Assembly: GCA_025963775.1 (NCBI GenBank)
Contig: JAOQAD010000012.1
Location: 124,001-188,000 of the forward strand
Length of the DNA: 64,000 nt
Source of the DNA: Bacteroidota bacterium
GTDB lineage: Bacteria; Bacteroidota; Bacteroidia; 2-12-FULL-35-15
Reading direction: 5' to 3'
How positions within the stretch are numbered: position 1 is the first letter of the stretch; each line of letters begins with the position of its first letter. Made by a program: the position numbers and the translations under genes. The notes beneath the pieces were generated by a model, which saw only the letters and a list, made by a program, of their open reading frames with translations, was not told the origin of the DNA and searched no databases. This document shows positions 5,051-13,256 of this stretch, one piece after another.

Positions 5051-5243
5051 GTTTCCGCCATCCGATTAATATCCGATTACCTGCCTGTTACCCAATCACC
5101 TACCATTTTTCCCATCCCCATAAATAGTGGCGGGATTTCCACACTTTTTGCGGGCCTCCCTTAACTTACACTTGATTTCCAGCCTCTTCACAAATGGCAT
5201 AGTTTTTCTTTTTAAACGGGGAAATAAACTTAAAACACCCTGT

Positions 5244-7892
5244 ATGAATATCCTGGATCTGAACATTATGAGAGGGCCGAACTATTGGTCCAATTACCGT
5301 CAACATATTATTATCATGAAACTCGACATCGGCAAGTATGAAGAGCTTCCAACCAACAAGATCGAAGGGTTTTCTGAACGGATCGAGAAAATGTTCCCAT
5401 CGATGTTCAGCCACCGCTGCTCGGAAGGGCATGAAGGAGGCTTTTTTGAGCGCATTCAGGAAGGCACCTGGATGGGGCATGTGGTAGAGCACATCGCACT
5501 GGAGATCCAGACCCTTGCCGGGATGGAATGCGGCTATGGCCGTACACGCTCTGCCGGGGCAACAGGAATTTACCATGTGATCTTCTCCTACGAGATCGAA
5601 AATGCAGGATTGTATGCTGCCGAAGCTGCTATCCGCATCGTGGAATCACTGATCAGCAATACGCCATACGACCTTGAAGAGGACATCAGCCAGTTAAAAC
5701 GCATTCACCGCCGCGAAGCATTCGGCCCAAGCACACAATCCATCGTTAACGAAGCTAAAAAACGCAATATCCCATACAAACGCCTGAACAAAGGATCCAT
5801 GATCATGTTCGGCCAGGGCATCCATCAGAAAAAGATCCGCGCATCCATGACCTGCCAGACAGCTTCCATTGGAGTTGACCTTGCAGGCGATAAGGACGAA
5901 ACGAAAAAGCTCCTGAAGAAAGCATACATCCCTGTTCCAAGCGGCGAAGTGATCTCCGACGAGGAAGGACTGAGGGACATCCTCCAGGAAATGAGCTTCC
6001 CTGTAGTTATAAAACCGATCGATGGCAATCACGGCCGTGGCATTACCACCAACATCCGCGATGTGGAGCAGGCAATAAGCGCCTTTCATATTGCAAAGAC
6101 AATTTCCGAAGATGTGATCGTGGAGCGTTTCATCGAAGGATTTGATTACCGTTTCCTCGTGATCAATTATAAATTAGTGGCTGTTGCAAAACGCACACCT
6201 GCAATGGTAATGGGGGATGGCATTTCCAGCATCAGCGAGCTCATCGAGCAAACCAACACCGATCCGAACAGGGGTGACGGACATGAAAAGATCATGACAA
6301 AAATAAAAGTGGATGAAGTAACTGAAAATATTCTTGCAGATAAAGGCTTAACCTTGAAATCGATCCTCCCGATGGGACAGATCCTTCTCCTGAAGGACAC
6401 CGCTAACATGAGCACAGGAGGAACATCCCGCGATGTGACCGACCTTGTGCACCCCGACAACGTATTCATGGCTGAGCGTATTGCACGCATCATGAACCTC
6501 GATATCTGCGGAATCGATGTGGTTGCAAAAGACATAGATGTTCCTATCACGAACGAGATCGGCGGCGTTGTGGAAGTGAATGCCTGCCCGGGATTCAGGA
6601 TGCACCTGAGCCCTGCAAAAGGCCTTCCGCGCAATGTGGCGGAGCCGGTGATGAGCATGCTCTTCCCTGGAGGAAAGCCTGCACGCATCCCTGTGGTTGC
6701 CATCACAGGCACAAACGGGAAGACAACTACCACCCGCCTTGTGGCGCACATGGCGAAACAAGCGGGATTCCGCCCGGGCTTTACCACTACCGACGGAATT
6801 TACATCGACGGGCACCTGATCCATTACGGTGATTGCACCGGGCCTGTAAGCGCTGAAACGGTCTTAACTGATCCAACTGTAGACTTCGCTGTGCTTGAAT
6901 GCGCAAGAGGCGGGATCCTGCGTGCAGGGCTTGGCTTCGACAACTGCAACATCAGCATCGTTACCAACATCACCGAAGACCACCTCGGGCTGAAAGGCAT
7001 TGAAACCCTTTCGGAGATGGCAAAGGTAAAAGAAGTGGTAGCGCGCAGCACCTTCGATGACGGCTATTCCATTTTAAATGCGGATGACGATCTCGTATAC
7101 GATATGCGTGAAGAGCTGGACTGCAACATTGCATTGTTCAGCACCGAAGAGAACAACGAGCGCATCGCACGCCACTGCAGAAGAGGCGGCATGGCTGCAA
7201 CGATTGAAAAAGGCTACCTCACCATCACACGCGGCGAATGGCAGACAAGGATCTGCAGGATCGAGAATGTGCCATTGTCGTTCGGCGGCAAGGCAAGCTC
7301 CATGGTAAAAAATATACTTGCTGCAACGCTTGCCGGACTGATCAGCAATTTCAGCCTGGAGGATATCCGTGCAGCATTGCTCTCTTTCATTCCTTCACCG
7401 GAATTCACACCCGGGAGAATGAACGTGTTCAAGTTCAGCAATTTCGACGTAATGATCGATTATGCGCACAACACCGGCGGCTTTATCGAACTGAAAAAAT
7501 ACGTTGACAACGTCAGCTCTGCCGCTAAAATAGGCATCATTACGGCTGTTGGCGACAGGAGGGACGAAGACATCCGCAACATCGGGCATTATGCGGCACA
7601 GATGTTCAGCCAGGTCGTGATCCGTCACGACAAGGACCTGCGCGGAAGGCCGGCTGAAGAGATCACCGCGCTGCTTACAGAAGGGATCAATGGTGTGAAC
7701 AAAAACATCCCGGTAACTGTGATCCCCGATGAACAGGATGCATTGCTTCATGTAATGAACAATGCAGTGAACGGGGCATTCATCTTTGTGTGCACCGACA
7801 ATATCAAACGCAGCATCGACTTTGTAAAAGAGTTGAAAAAAGAAAATGAAAAGCCTGACAGCACGATGTTCACGCTGTCAAGAGTTTCATAA
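5244..7892 (+). CDS. cphA: cyanophycin synthetase (first copy, HxxEH present)
   Basis: An 882-residue cyanophycin synthetase, which builds multi-L-arginyl-poly-L-aspartate by alternately adding Asp to the backbone and Arg to the side chain with ATP. The N domain (1-160) carries the canonical CphA1 stretch HRCSEGHEGGFFERI followed by GTWMGHVVEHIALE, including HVVEH at 79-83. The ATP-grasp domain (about 205-480) has DGNHGRG at 260-266 and metal-binding EVNACPGFRMH. The Mur-ligase domain (about 480-882) has the P-loop GTNGKTTTTR at 489 onward, LECARGGILR, and DYAHNTGG. I chose the ATG at 5244 because CphA homology starts at MNILDLNIMRGPNYWS; the upstream extension to 5127 has no homology. Its paralogue is at 9750. 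A terminator at 7918 follows. Identity is secure; substrate preference is inferred. Confidence 0.95.
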   Translation: MNILDLNIMRGPNYWSNYRQHIIIMKLDIGKYEELPTNKIEGFSERIEKMFPSMFSHRCSEGHEGGFFERIQEGTWMGHVVEHIALEIQTLAGMECGYGRTRSAGATGIYHVIFSYEIENAGLYAAEAAIRIVESLISNTPYDLEEDISQLKRIHRREAFGPSTQSIVNEAKKRNIPYKRLNKGSMIMFGQGIHQKKIRASMTCQTASIGVDLAGDKDETKKLLKKAYIPVPSGEVISDEEGLRDILQEMSFPVVIKPIDGNHGRGITTNIRDVEQAISAFHIAKTISEDVIVERFIEGFDYRFLVINYKLVAVAKRTPAMVMGDGISSISELIEQTNTDPNRGDGHEKIMTKIKVDEVTENILADKGLTLKSILPMGQILLLKDTANMSTGGTSRDVTDLVHPDNVFMAERIARIMNLDICGIDVVAKDIDVPITNEIGGVVEVNACPGFRMHLSPAKGLPRNVAEPVMSMLFPGGKPARIPVVAITGTNGKTTTTRLVAHMAKQAGFRPGFTTTDGIYIDGHLIHYGDCTGPVSAETVLTDPTVDFAVLECARGGILRAGLGFDNCNISIVTNITEDHLGLKGIETLSEMAKVKEVVARSTFDDGYSILNADDDLVYDMREELDCNIALFSTEENNERIARHCRRGGMAATIEKGYLTITRGEWQTRICRIENVPLSFGGKASSMVKNILAATLAGLISNFSLEDIRAALLSFIPSPEFTPGRMNVFKFSNFDVMIDYAHNTGGFIELKKYVDNVSSAAKIGIITAVGDRRDEDIRNIGHYAAQMFSQVVIRHDKDLRGRPAEEITALLTEGINGVNKNIPVTVIPDEQDALLHVMNNAVNGAFIFVCTDNIKRSIDFVKELKKENEKPDSTMFTLSRVS

Positions 7893-7967: not shown

Positions 7968-8903
7968 TCAGTCCTTATAAATACCAATAAAAAGGTCCTC
8001 TCCCGATCTTTTCATCGCACGGTACATGCCTTCCGAGTTAAAAGGCATTTCAATATTTCCGGCTGCATCAATTGCGATCAGTCCGCCTTCCCCGCCCAGC
8101 TTCACCAGTTTTTTCATTACAACAATGTCGCAGGCTTCTTTCAGTGAAAGCCCCTTGTATTCCATCAGGCAGGAAACATCATAAGCCACCACCGAGCGGA
8201 TAAAATATTCGCCGTGCCCCGTGCAGGAGATCGCGCAGGTTGCATTGTTCGCATAGGTTCCCGCTCCTATGATCGGGCTGTCCCCTACTCTTCCCCAGCG
8301 TTTGTTCGTCATGCCGCCGGTGGACGTTGCAGCTGCAATATTCCCGTGCACATCCAGCGCAACCGCACCCACCGTTCCGAATTTTTTTTCATCGCCGGGC
8401 GTGGTATGGTCAAGCACGATCTGCCCTTCTTCCCTTGCCACCAACAGCTGATCGTAACGGTGCTGCACAAAAAAGTATTCATCCGGCGCAAATTCAAGTC
8501 CCATGTCCTTTGCAAAATCTGCAGCGCCTGAGTTGGCAAGCAGCACATGCGCCGATTTTTCCATGATCGCTTTCGCAAGCAATACAGGATGCTTCAGGTT
8601 CCTGATGCCTGATACGGCACCTGCCATCAGCGTTTTCCCATCCATGATCGCCGCATCCATTTCATGCTTGCCTTCGTGATTGAACACAGAGCCTTTCCCT
8701 GCATTGAACAGCTCATTGTTCTCCATCAGCCGTACGCTCTCCGTGATCGCATCCAGCGCATTTCCGCCTTCTGCAAGGATCTTATCGCCAATTTCAATTG
8801 CTTCGCTGAGCGCTGATTTATAAGCTGCTTCCAGTTCAGGGGTGAGCCCGCTCCTCGTGATCGTTCCTGCTCCGCCATGTATTGCTATTGCATATTTTTT
8901 CAT
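7968..8903 (-). CDS. isoaspartyl peptidase / plant-type L-asparaginase
   Basis: A 311-residue Ntn-hydrolase of the IaaA/EcAIII family. It opens YAIAIHGGAGTI, and the autocleavage site is KFG|TVGAVALD with Thr177 as the new N-terminal nucleophile; TSTGGMTNK and GTGTY/GHGE-type substrate segments follow (here GAGTYA and CTGHGEYF). The family hydrolyses beta-aspartyl dipeptides and asparagine. In cyanophycin degradation an enzyme of this kind splits beta-Asp-Arg released by cyanophycinase into Asp and Arg. Its position between two cphA genes, on the opposite strand, supports that role. I place the start at 8903 (MKKYAIA...); the frame extends upstream to 9041 but that part is not family-like. 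Confidence 0.9.
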   Translation of the reverse strand: MKKYAIAIHGGAGTITRSGLTPELEAAYKSALSEAIEIGDKILAEGGNALDAITESVRLMENNELFNAGKGSVFNHEGKHEMDAAIMDGKTLMAGAVSGIRNLKHPVLLAKAIMEKSAHVLLANSGAADFAKDMGLEFAPDEYFFVQHRYDQLLVAREEGQIVLDHTTPGDEKKFGTVGAVALDVHGNIAAATSTGGMTNKRWGRVGDSPIIGAGTYANNATCAISCTGHGEYFIRSVVAYDVSCLMEYKGLSLKEACDIVVMKKLVKLGGEGGLIAIDAAGNIEMPFNSEGMYRAMKRSGEDLFIGIYKD

Positions 8904-9084: not shown

Positions 9085-9681
9085 ATGAAAACAAAAGCAG
9101 CTAACAAAAAAGCACCGGCAGAGTATGGCATTGAAGAATCAAAGCTTATGAAATTATTTGAAGACGAATTGAAAGACATTTACTGGGCAGAAAAAGCGCT
9201 GACCAAAGCATTGCCGAAGATGGTAAAGAATGCAACGAATGAAGAGCTCATTGCTGCACTGGAAAACCACCTGGAAGAAACAGAAGCACAGGTTGAAAAA
9301 CTGGAGCAGGTATTCGAATCCATCGGCAAAAAGGCACAGGCTAAAAAATGTGAAGCGATGGCAGGCCTTGTAAAGGAAGCGGAAGAGATCATGAAAGACA
9401 CCGACAAAGGTGCAATGCGTGATGCAGGCATTATTTCAGCAGGCCAGAAAGTAGAGCATTATGAAATTGCAACTTACGGCACTTTGCGCCAGTTTGCAAA
9501 AACACTGGGACTTGAGGATGCAGCAGGATTGCTGGAAGAGATCCTGAACGAAGAAAAAGCAGCAGATGAAAAATTAACTGAAGTTGCAGAAGCAACTATC
9601 AACATGCAGGCGGCAGAGGAACAAGAAGGAGAAGATGAAGAAGAAGCTCCTAAAGCAAAAAAAGCTGCGAAAAAAAAATAA
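9085..9681 (+). CDS. DUF892 ferritin-like protein (YciE/YciF family)
   Basis: A 198-residue helical protein. Residues about 15-175 form the DUF892 ferritin-like bundle, with LMKLFEDELKDIYWAEKAL, NHLEETEAQVEKLEQVF and GQKVEHYEIATYGTLR providing the Glu/His carboxylate pairs typical of a di-metal site. The C terminus is a low-complexity tail, first acidic (EEQEGEDEEEAPK) then basic (AKKAAKKK). E. coli relatives are stress-induced and of uncertain function. It stands inside the cyanophycin locus with its own terminator, so a stationary-phase or starvation role is plausible but not shown. Confidence 0.85.
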   Translation: MKTKAANKKAPAEYGIEESKLMKLFEDELKDIYWAEKALTKALPKMVKNATNEELIAALENHLEETEAQVEKLEQVFESIGKKAQAKKCEAMAGLVKEAEEIMKDTDKGAMRDAGIISAGQKVEHYEIATYGTLRQFAKTLGLEDAAGLLEEILNEEKAADEKLTEVAEATINMQAAEEQEGEDEEEAPKAKKAAKKK

Positions 9682-9688
9682 AGAATAG

Positions 9689-9722
9689 CGGGAGCAAATA
9701 GAAAAAATTTGCTCCCGATTCT
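9689..9722 (+). terminator. terminator of the DUF892 gene
   Basis: Perfect 11-bp stem cgggagcaaat/atttgctcccg (9689-9699 and 9707-9717), then a T-rich stretch. Confidence 0.85.
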
Positions 9723-9749: not shown

Positions 9750-12305
9750 ATGTTTGAGATTACTGAAACGAAAGTGATGCGGGGGCCCAATCAATGGTCA
9801 GATCAGCACACTCAGCTTATTGTATTAAAATTAAAGACAGGCAGCTCAGTAAAGGCCGGCCTGCTTAAAGAAATTAACGGGATGTTCCCGGAAGTGCATC
9901 CGAATGAATCGCCGGTAAATGAAATTGCCGAAGCATTCAGGATCATTGCCATTGGCCTGCAGCGCAGGGCCGGAATGAATGTGGAATTCGGCAGCATAGC
10001 GGCAACAGCGAAACCGGAAATTTTTCGTATACTCTTTTCCTACGAATATGAAGCTGCAGGAAAACATGCAGCTGCTTCGGCACTGAAGATGCTTGAAGCT
10101 ATTGCAACAGGTCAGCCTGCAGGCCTTGACGAATGTATCGAAGAGCTTCACGAGATCAGGTCGGATGAAGATATGGGCGCTACCACTTCTTTTATCCTCC
10201 ATGAAGCCATCAGCCGTGGCATTCCTTACAAGCGTTTTGACAATGGATCACTCATCACACTTGGCTACGGAAGAAAGCAGAAAAAAATGCGCACTGCCCT
10301 CGTGGATTCTACCAGCGGCATTGGCATAGAGCTGGCCGGCGACAAGGAAGAAACGAAAAAAATGCTGGAGGAAGCAAAGCTGCCGGTACCGAAAGGCGTG
10401 ATCGTTTATGATGAAGAAGAGCTGCTCAGCGAAATAAAGAACATGCAGTTCCCCCTGGTGACAAAACCGCTGGATGGTAATCACGGAAGGGGCGTTACAA
10501 CAGAGATCAACAGCATTGAAAAAGCGCTGCACGGGTTGAAGATCGCGCAGAAGATCTCAAAGGCCGTGATCGTGGAAGAGTTCATCCGCGGTGAGGACCA
10601 TCGTTTTCTCGTGATCAACTATAAGCTGGTAGCTGTTGCAAAACGCACACCAGCACATGTGAAAGGCGATGGCAAATCGACTGTTCAACAACTTATCGAT
10701 AATGAGAATGAACATCCTGACCGCGGCTCCAGCCAGGAACATCCGCTGGCACAGATAAAAGTGGATGACATTACGAAAAAGCTTCTTGCTGAAAAATCAT
10801 TAACACTTGAATCCATTCTGCCGGAAGGCGAAACAGTATACCTGAAAGAGATCGCGAACATCAGCGCAGGCGGCACTTCCACCGACGTTACCGATATTGT
10901 GCATCCTGAAAATATTTTCATGGCAGAGCACATCGCCAAACTGTTCAGCCTTAACATCTGCGGGATCGATATATTAACGACGGACGTGAGCGTTCCGCTG
11001 ACAAAACAAACAGGCGCCATCATTGAAGTGAATGCCGGCCCTGGGATCAGGATGCATACAAACCCAACCATCGGTATTCCACGCAATGTGGCCAAGCCGA
11101 TCATTGACATGCTGTTCCCCGATAACGACACGCGCATCCCATTGATCGCCATTACGGGCACAAACGGCAAGACCACCACTACCCGCTTAACGGCGCATAT
11201 TTTAAAAGAGACCGGCAAAACAGTCGGCTACACCACTACCGAAGGAATTTACATCGATGATCATATCATTGAGAATGGCGACTGCACAGGCTCACAAAGC
11301 GCACAAACCATCCTCTTCGATCCGACCGTTGATATCGCGGTGCTTGAATGTGCCCGTGGCGGGATCATCCGTGCAGGGCTCGGCTTCGACAGCTGCGACA
11401 TCAGCATCGTGACGAATGTTTCTGATGACCATCTCGGAACAAAAGATATTGAAACGCTGGAGGAGCTTGCAAAGGTGAAGCTGGTTGTTGCCAAAAGCAC
11501 GAAGAAGGATGGCTATGCTATCCTCAATGCCGATGATGACCTTGTGTACGACATGCAGCAATATACCAACTGCAAGATCGCGCTGTTCAGCATGGATGAG
11601 AACAGCCCCCGCATCAAAGCACATTGTGAAAGCGGCGGGGTTGCTGCAGTGATCGGGGAAGGTTATCTCACCGTTTATAACGGAGAGTGGAAAACAAGGA
11701 TCGCACCGATCGAAAGCATTCCCTTAAGCTTTGAAGGAAGAGCAGAGTTTATGATCCAGAACATATTGGCAGCAACACTGGCAGCCATGCTGCAAACAGG
11801 ATTCAATTCCGAAGTGGTGAGAAAAGGATTATTATCATTCATTCCTTCACCTGAAAAAACTCCCGGAAGGCTGAACATTTTCAAATTCAAAAATTTCGAT
11901 TTCATCATCGATTACGCACATAACAAAAGCGGCTTTATCGAGCTGAAAAAATTTCTGGACAAAACGGATGCTTCCGAAAAAACAGGGATCATCGCAGCAA
12001 CGGGCGACCGCAGGGATGAGGACATCCGCAATCTCGGGCGCTATGCCGCACAGATGTTCGACAACATCATCATCCGCCACGACACTGACCTGAGAGGCCG
12101 CCCGGAGGCAGAACATTCAAAGCTCCTGATCGAAGGCATCGAAGAGATCAGTAAAGAAATCCCTGTAAAGGTGATCCCGGATGAAAAGGAAGCGATCAGC
12201 TATGCGATCGCAAAAGCAAAGAAAGGATCGATGATCCTGGCATGCGCCGACGATGTGCATGCAACCATTGCCTTTGTATCGGAAACAAAATCACGTGAAC
12301 ACTAA
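9750..12305 (+). CDS. cyanophycin synthetase paralogue (second copy, HxxEH lost)
   Basis: An 851-residue paralogue of the protein at 5244, alignable end to end. ATP-grasp (about 185-460) keeps DGNHGRG at 242-248 and EVNAGPGIRMH. The Mur-ligase half keeps the P-loop GTNGKTTTTR at 470 onward, LECARGGIIR, and DYAHNKSG. Both ligase sites therefore look intact. The N domain is about 18 residues shorter, lacks the HRCSEG..GGF segment, and has EAFRI (61-65) where the first copy has HVVEH. Tandem or near-tandem cphA pairs are known from Burkholderiales (cphA/cphA'). The cyanophycinase gene begins 9 bases after its stop, so the two are almost certainly co-transcribed. Whether it works alone or with the first copy cannot be told from sequence. 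Confidence 0.93.
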   Translation: MFEITETKVMRGPNQWSDQHTQLIVLKLKTGSSVKAGLLKEINGMFPEVHPNESPVNEIAEAFRIIAIGLQRRAGMNVEFGSIAATAKPEIFRILFSYEYEAAGKHAAASALKMLEAIATGQPAGLDECIEELHEIRSDEDMGATTSFILHEAISRGIPYKRFDNGSLITLGYGRKQKKMRTALVDSTSGIGIELAGDKEETKKMLEEAKLPVPKGVIVYDEEELLSEIKNMQFPLVTKPLDGNHGRGVTTEINSIEKALHGLKIAQKISKAVIVEEFIRGEDHRFLVINYKLVAVAKRTPAHVKGDGKSTVQQLIDNENEHPDRGSSQEHPLAQIKVDDITKKLLAEKSLTLESILPEGETVYLKEIANISAGGTSTDVTDIVHPENIFMAEHIAKLFSLNICGIDILTTDVSVPLTKQTGAIIEVNAGPGIRMHTNPTIGIPRNVAKPIIDMLFPDNDTRIPLIAITGTNGKTTTTRLTAHILKETGKTVGYTTTEGIYIDDHIIENGDCTGSQSAQTILFDPTVDIAVLECARGGIIRAGLGFDSCDISIVTNVSDDHLGTKDIETLEELAKVKLVVAKSTKKDGYAILNADDDLVYDMQQYTNCKIALFSMDENSPRIKAHCESGGVAAVIGEGYLTVYNGEWKTRIAPIESIPLSFEGRAEFMIQNILAATLAAMLQTGFNSEVVRKGLLSFIPSPEKTPGRLNIFKFKNFDFIIDYAHNKSGFIELKKFLDKTDASEKTGIIAATGDRRDEDIRNLGRYAAQMFDNIIIRHDTDLRGRPEAEHSKLLIEGIEEISKEIPVKVIPDEKEAISYAIAKAKKGSMILACADDVHATIAFVSETKSREH

Positions 12306-12314
12306 AATTTATTT

Positions 12315-13256
12315 ATGTTACAGCAAATACCCAAAGGGACATTATTAGTAATTGGCGGAGCGGAGGACAGGAGCGACAAGAGCGGGCTTACCCGGAACAG
12401 GGAATATGAGCGTTTCGAGATCCTCAGCGAGCTGCTGCCGAAAAAGAACCATAACAGGAGAAAACAGATCGAGATCATTACCACGGCATCAAATGTACCC
12501 ATTGAGATCAACGAGCTTTACCGGGAAACGTTTAAAAAGATCGGTTTCAAGCAGATCGGCTTTATTAACATGAGCAATAATCTTGAAGCGGATAATCCTA
12601 AATATGTAAAGCGCATTAAGGATGCCCATGCTGTTTTTTTCTCGGGCGGCGATCAGTTCCGCCTCTCGACCATCCTCGGCAGTTCCGATGTGGTTGAAAA
12701 GGTGCGCGAAAAATACATGAAGGACAAAGATTTTATTTTAGCAGGGACGAGCGCCGGGGCAATGGCCATGTCGGGGCTGATGCTTTATGAAGGCGAGAAC
12801 AACGAGGCCATGCTCAGCCAGACCGTGAAATTCAGCTCGGGCCTGGGCTTTATCCAGGGCTGCATCATCGACACACATTTTATTAAAAGGGGAAGGTTCG
12901 GAAGGCTTGCGCAATCCATTGTGATGAACCCTTCCTGCATCGGCATCGGGCTGGGCGAAGATACTGCGCTCATCATTAAACGCGGAAGCATAGCAGAATG
13001 CAAAGGCTCCGGAATGGTGATCATCATTGATGGCAAAGATGTAGGGCATACGAACATTGCGTATGCTGCTCCCGATGTGCCATTGTGCATCGAAAACCTG
13101 AGAGTGCATATTCTTTCGAAGGGAAATGGCTATGACTTCAGGGAGCGAAAATTCATGCCGTCTAAAAGGGATATCAAGGCTGAACGCCTTACAAGGCCGC
13201 CGGCAAAAAAGACAATGACGAAAAAAGCCAGGAAAACAGTTTCCAAAAAAGCCTGA
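12315..13256 (+). CDS. cphB: cyanophycinase
   Basis: A 313-residue S51-type serine peptidase that cuts cyanophycin into beta-Asp-Arg dipeptides. The core is complete: LLVIGGAEDR at the start, SGGDQFR (110-116), nucleophile Ser146 in GTSAGAM, and the histidine at about 188 in IDTHFIKRGR. There is no signal peptide, so it should act on the organism's own cytoplasmic polymer, unlike secreted CphE enzymes. The last ~20 residues form a Lys/Ala/Thr-rich basic tail (AKKTMTKKARKTVSKKA) absent from the minimal catalytic fold. Nine bases separate it from the upstream synthetase. Synthesis and breakdown enzymes are thus in one operon. Confidence 0.95.
   Translation: MLQQIPKGTLLVIGGAEDRSDKSGLTRNREYERFEILSELLPKKNHNRRKQIEIITTASNVPIEINELYRETFKKIGFKQIGFINMSNNLEADNPKYVKRIKDAHAVFFSGGDQFRLSTILGSSDVVEKVREKYMKDKDFILAGTSAGAMAMSGLMLYEGENNEAMLSQTVKFSSGLGFIQGCIIDTHFIKRGRFGRLAQSIVMNPSCIGIGLGEDTALIIKRGSIAECKGSGMVIIIDGKDVGHTNIAYAAPDVPLCIENLRVHILSKGNGYDFRERKFMPSKRDIKAERLTRPPAKKTMTKKARKTVSKKA

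Follow-up and report, generated by a model that had tools for sequence, protein, structure and literature searches.

Neighbouring cyanophycin synthetases with and without the N-domain primer-forming site in a Bacteroidota genome

In cyanophycin synthetases of the CphA1 type, cryo-EM, mutagenesis and mass spectrometry have identified the Cx19HxxEH motif of the N domain as a metallopeptidase-like site whose endo-cyanophycinase activity generates primers (PMC9262961). The full motif is found in 83% of the CphA1s of nr70, and the E82Q substitution removes the primer independence of SuCphA1 (PMC9262961). Both this mutant and the motif-less TmCphA1, in which all four motif residues are missing, are primer-dependent (PMC9262961). 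Synthesis without primer is obtained when the isolated N domain is provided in trans to TmCphA1 and also in dimers in which an N+ protomer lies beside an N-G+M+ protomer (PMC9262961). With cutting and polymerising carried by one enzyme, the expression level cannot set the balance between them (Sharon et al. 2022, PMC9262961). Loss of the N-domain site (TmCphA1) and neighbouring cphA pairs are each already known, separately. A published pair split into N+ and N- members was not found in the open-access literature, which is weak evidence as the subscription journals lie mostly outside it.

The two synthetase genes and their N domains

The window, i.e. the whole stretch of 64,000 nucleotides that was analysed, is part of the Bacteroidota MAG G000 (3.33 Mb, 65% complete) and contains two cphA genes separated by 1.86 kb, with a minus-strand gene for an isoaspartyl peptidase (IaaA) and a gene for a DUF892 protein between them (Table 1). 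Both products exceed the cut-offs of the NCBIfam profiles TIGR02068 (850 bits) and NF010623 (877 bits), with 1221.6 and 1120.1 bits respectively for copy 1 and 1025.8 and 970.8 bits for copy 2. Taken as a whole, the locus is best explained, with a probability that we put at about 0.6, as encoding two paralogous cyanophycin synthetases, both predicted to be catalytically competent. Copy 2 would then be a CphA1 that depends on primers and is confined to elongation, for which copy 1 could supply primers in trans.

Table 1. Genes and sequence features of the cyanophycin locus (positions in the window)
Feature	Position	Strand	Remarks
Conserved elements TGATTTCCAG and TGGCATAGTTTTT	5173..5207	+	-71 and -49 from the copy 1 ATG
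CphA1 copy 1 (N+G+M+)	5244..7892	+	882 aa from ATG 5244; complete Cx19HxxEH
C59 codon of copy 1	5418..5420	+	Third metal ligand of the N-domain site (role according to PMC9262961)
HVVEH (79-83) of copy 1	5478..5492	+	N-domain metallopeptidase-like motif (PMC9262961)
Isoaspartyl peptidase / L-asparaginase (IaaA type)	7968..8903	-	Start codon inferred from profile match
DUF892 (YciE/YciF-like) protein	9085..9681	+	Precedes the N- cphA directly in seven genomes
Terminator-like hairpin	9689..9717	+	11-bp stem, T-rich tail, about 30 nt 5' of copy 2
CphA1 copy 2 (N-G+M+)	9750..12305	+	851 aa
13-residue deletion junction, copy 2 codons 54/55	9909..9914	+	F67/R70 region removed
EAFRI (61-65) of copy 2	9930..9944	+	Place where HxxEH was lost
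Cyanophycinase CphB	12315..13256	+	GTSAGA nucleophile motif; starts 9 nt 3' of copy 2

In copy 1, H57-R58-C59 and H79-V-V-E82-H83 together form Cx19HVVEH, and alignment places HVVEH exactly at residues 79-83, as the original prediction had stated. The same prediction took HxxEH for the N-domain site of CphA1, and in the published CphA1 structures this motif is indeed the N-domain active site, formed by H79, E82 and H83 with C59, E82Q abolishing primer-independent synthesis (PMC9262961). Facing this motif, copy 2 has E61-A-F-R-I65. The replacement of all three putative residues had thus been described exactly, but the extent of the loss was understated: at ten site or near-site positions of SuCphA1 (57, 59, 67, 70, 79, 82, 83, 87, 90 and 100), copy 2 keeps none of the residues and copy 1 keeps nine (H57, C59, F67, R70, H79, E82, H83, E87 and R100). 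The signature of self-priming enzymes, Cx19HxxEH (C59, H79, E82 and H83), is consequently complete in copy 1, and all four residues are lacking in copy 2. The N domain of copy 2 is also shorter (141 residues vs 159 in copy 1). The difference, first estimated at about 18 residues, is exactly 18 and corresponds mostly to a 6-residue and a 13-residue gap immediately before the active-site helix. Chance or misalignment is ruled out as the source of this loss, since it is common to orthologues at 77-90% identity, the 13-residue deletion included. Among the seven orthologues, the N domain contains no invariant Cys or His that would point to a replacement metal site.

Ligase sites, predicted fold and selection

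The claim that both ligase sites of copy 2 are intact held for every G- and M-site residue checked. Briefly, the G site (residue list from PMC9427784) has K220, K261, H267, R309, R323, N394, S396, D431, E450, G456 and R458, and the M site (residues from PMC9427784 and PMC9262961) has GTNGKTTT, T522, E558, D585, H586, DYAHN and GDRRD. Copy 2 as a CphA2, which has a single active site and has lost the M site, is ruled out by the conservation of GTNGKTTT, T522, E558, D585 and H586. As a side observation, H267, whose replacement by Ala inactivates the G site of SuCphA1, is Q in some motif-less CphA1s (L037 7998-10589, L058 and L059), and both copies of the window keep H.

The predicted model of copy 2 (mean pLDDT 89) superimposes on TeCphA1 (7wae) with a Z of 57.4 and an rmsd of 2.6 over 843 residues, and on SuCphA1 with a Z of 51-52. 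According to this model, copy 2 retains the whole three-domain CphA1 fold. Its N domain keeps the sheet, the former active-site helix (58-73), the backing helix (101-119) and the helix 126-140, and is devoid of the short helix corresponding to residues 65-72 of copy 1.

The dN/dS ratio (omega) was computed over four genomes, domain by domain. Between G000 and G014, the N-domain omega is 0.15 for copy 2 and 0.067 for copy 1, and the values for the G and M domains are 0.051 and 0.039 for copy 2 and 0.057 and 0.051 for copy 1. For more distant pairs, in which dS is mostly saturated, the N-domain dN lies between 0.33 and 0.55 for copy 2 and between 0.11 and 0.17 for copy 1. In terms of dN, the N domain of copy 2 evolves 2-4 times faster among orthologues than that of copy 1. 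Across the seven pairs, the mean N-domain identity is 41% for the motif-less and 72% for the motif-bearing proteins, the identity of the G and M domains being equal. A fast-evolving N domain associated with equally conserved G and M domains indicates that constraint has been lost in the N domain and maintained in the ligases.

These values also bear on the idea that copy 2 is a decaying, functionless duplicate, which its fast-evolving N domain might suggest, as might L060, a distant relative (clade A, see below) that is truncated and has lost the M site too. Decay into a pseudogene was nevertheless rejected on the basis of the G and M omega of about 0.05 (0.04-0.06), the same as in copy 1. Moreover, the frame, the ligase residues, the neighbours and an upstream hairpin are kept in seven genomes, so that a functionless copy 2 appears highly improbable.

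Distribution of the loss and conservation of the pair

The sample comprised 207 distinct CphA1-like sequences, nearly all from Bacteroidota, the large searches having scored the two best candidates per genome. The strict Cx19HxxEH motif is present in 180 of them, and the remaining 27 consist of six sequences with Cx21HxxEH, one masked in the motif, three truncated, two distant homologues and 15 in which the site is lost. Deep-branching CphA1s (L094, L123-L127) carry Cx21HxxEH, with two extra residues before GTW, and are missed by a strict Cx19HxxEH count.

The 15 losses were distributed into three groups. Clade A contains eight of them (window copy 2, G014, G016, G007, G430, G431, G662 and the unlinked L060 of G006), clade B four (G014, G016, G431 and one Chryseobacterium plasmid) and group C three (G107, G201 and G422, all of one Bacteroidota genus, with a single copy detected). 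In group C (L115, L119 and L120), the motif reads HVI[YQ]H without the Cys and is therefore a natural E82Q or E82Y, E82Q being the substitution by which SuCphA1 has been inactivated experimentally. The tree is restricted to the G and M domains and does not include L111, L159 or group C, whose assignment rests on the form of their N domain, on their neighbours or on identity. Clade A (support 100/100) and clade B (L058, L059 and the Chryseobacterium sequence in the tree, 100/100, motif-less throughout) are separate, which gives two losses of the N site on the G+M tree. The site has thus been lost more than once in Bacteroidota, with the ligases still under selection.

L060 (8045-10240) has lost the N site, its M P-loop GTNGKTTT has become DYPEAATL and it is truncated; the checked G-site residues are all kept. 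From its sequence, it may be CphA2-like by convergence, or decaying. No motif-bearing cphA was found next to L060 or to the clade B genes in the stretches examined. On plasmids of Deinococcus (L103 10472-12971) and Roseateles/Shinella (L094 8816-10621), the gene after cphA is annotated as a Mur ligase and encodes a truncated CphA-like protein that has no ATP-grasp loop and is split in two frames in L103. These neighbours represent a different kind of partner.

The clade A gene adjoins a motif-bearing cphA in at least seven genomes. The motif-bearing partners cluster together with moderate support (80/76), which makes it probable that both genes of the pair were inherited, or transferred, as a unit. 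In three of the seven pair genomes, an N- and an N+ module lie in tandem, each accompanied by hydrolases of its own. The genes of G430 are arranged as DUF892 - CphA(N-) - CphB - IaaA - (MscS-like) - CphA(N+) - CphB - IaaA(reverse); G431 is similar except that two frames share its first CphB, and G662 has no first CphB. The arrangement in the group of the window is CphA(N+) - IaaA(reverse) - DUF892 - CphA(N-) - CphB. The CphB of the window is 61-64% identical to the CphB of the N- module and 48-50% to that of the N+ module, and its IaaA is 66-68% identical to the IaaA of the N+ module and 43-44% to that of the N- module. These identities make the two hydrolases orthologues of those of the N- and the N+ module, respectively, and indicate that the modules of the window have swapped order and that each has lost one hydrolase. 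Judged from these comparisons, the locus is a reordered and reduced version of the tandem two-module arrangement.

This modular organisation could also be read in other ways. Copy 1 and copy 2 might be independent isoenzymes, derived from an operon duplication and expressed under specific conditions, copy 2 being primer-dependent and using remnants from its own CphB or other primers rather than those of copy 1. Indeed, DUF892-CphA(N-)-CphB is a module of its own, both modules of G430 and G431 carry CphB and IaaA, motif-less CphA1s exist as the sole copy found (G107, G201 and G422) and remnant chains have been proposed as primers for such enzymes (PMC9262961). We consider this rather unlikely, however, because the N+ and N- types have remained neighbours across deep divergence and across the exchange of module positions, their groupings being congruent, and because the chains of copy 1 would share the cytoplasm with copy 2. 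Alternatively, copy 2 might make a different polymer, with another side-chain or backbone amino acid and with hydrolases of its own, in keeping with the separate CphB and IaaA of each G430 and G431 module and with small differences in the M motif (DYAHNK in copy 2, DYAHNT in copy 1 and DYAHNP in SuCphA1). This seems improbable given that the Asp-recognition residues R323, N394, S396 and R458 are all kept in copy 2 and that, in the window and its relatives, CphB comes from one module and IaaA from the second. In addition, G014 (97% complete) encodes one CphB for its three CphA1s, an argument limited by the additional CphB genes found elsewhere in G000, G016 and G007.

The two genes also differ in their upstream signals. 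Copy 1 and its N+ counterparts in six relatives are preceded by TGATTNYCAG followed, about 22 nt further on, by TGGYAYA and a T run. Both elements together occur upstream of exactly those seven N+ genes and of none of the 178 other regions tested, and sites of this type number one or two per genome in total; shared ancestry contributes to this conservation, as the seven N+ genes form a clade. A sigma-54 promoter is not claimed before copy 1, where a -24-like box is present without a -12 GC. In all seven loci (window, L044, L045, L046, L037, L039 and L159), the interval from the end of DUF892 to the N- cphA contains a hairpin with a T-rich tail, located about 30 nt 5' of the cphA start. The stems are unrelated between the two genome groups and the position is constant, and we regard this hairpin as a candidate attenuator or processing site. 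Copy 1 and copy 2 seem to belong to different transcription units, and the two synthetases may be under separate control.

Proposed cooperation and comparison with known systems

In the reading that we prefer, copy 1 would be a complete, self-priming enzyme whose G domain adds Asp and whose M domain adds Arg, the Cx19HxxEH of its N domain slowly cleaving chains to give short (beta-Asp-Arg)n primers. Copy 2, having ligase sites and an N scaffold without cutting activity, would elongate existing ends and start chains poorly alone; it would be fed by primers of copy 1 in trans, possibly in mixed oligomers, and by CphB remnants. Given the published trans-complementation, an elongation-only copy 2 fed by copy 1 and by CphB remnants is the most economical reading. 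With the two genes apparently transcribed separately, the cell would be able to adjust the proportion of cutting and elongating sites, an option that does not exist for a single enzyme. From the site loss, the intact ligase residues, the selection pattern, the conserved linkage and the module structure, we infer the primer dependence of copy 2, the primer supply by copy 1 and the control of their ratio. The division of labour initially suggested, with copy 1 making primers and polymer and copy 2 only elongating, is partly supported and has been strengthened by the relaxed N domain with constrained ligases, the long-lived linkage and the separate upstream signals.

W672, the residue that SuCphA1 requires for tetramers, is kept in both copies of the window and is S or T in the pairs of G430 and G431. 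A mixed tetramer is thus possible in the window, but could not be a general rule resting on W672; copy 1 and copy 2 might form hetero-oligomers. A motif-bearing partner is not obligatory, as a motif-less CphA1 is the sole copy found in the case of TmCphA1 and in one Bacteroidota genus. More tentatively, the pair could constitute a two-enzyme machine, in which N+G+M+ and N-G+M+ synthetases, co-inherited and separately controlled, would cooperate, possibly in mixed oligomers, their ratio setting chain number and length.

In the naturally occurring window pair, the balance between cutting and polymerising could be set by expression, and conservation of the pair in at least seven genomes suggests that polymer starting and lengthening can be set separately. 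With this pair, one could test directly whether the number and length of chains are limited in vivo by the supply of primers, and cyanophycin production would have a ready N+/N- set.

Compared with SuCphA1 and TeCphA1 (PDB 7lg5, 7txv and 7wae), copy 2 has the same predicted three-domain fold and the same G and M residues, and copy 1 shares the N site too, whereas copy 2 has none of the N-site residues and 18 fewer N-domain residues. CphA2 (PDB 7ta5 and 8fxi) resembles copy 2 in being a second synthetase-like enzyme that has no N-site motif, but it has one active site and repolymerises beta-Asp-Arg, whereas copy 2 has the full length and both ligase sites intact; L060 of G006, with the G site only, is nearer to CphA2 in its residue state than copy 2 is. 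Neighbouring cphA pairs with the same adjacency as in the window are present in Ralstonia eutropha, Accumulibacter and Tetrasphaera (PMC11362209, PMC10687191), although the cphA clusters of the Accumulibacter type contain no cphB, unlike the window. Finally, TmCphA1 from Tatumella morbirosei (PDB 7lgn) resembles copy 2 in having no Cx19HxxEH and in keeping the G and M sites. It works as proposed here for copy 2, was described as a single motif-less enzyme and is 34-37% identical to copy 2 across the structural match. Since copy 2 is closer to the motif-bearing CphA1s of Bacteroidota and is co-encoded with one of them, its loss of the N site is separate from that of TmCphA1.
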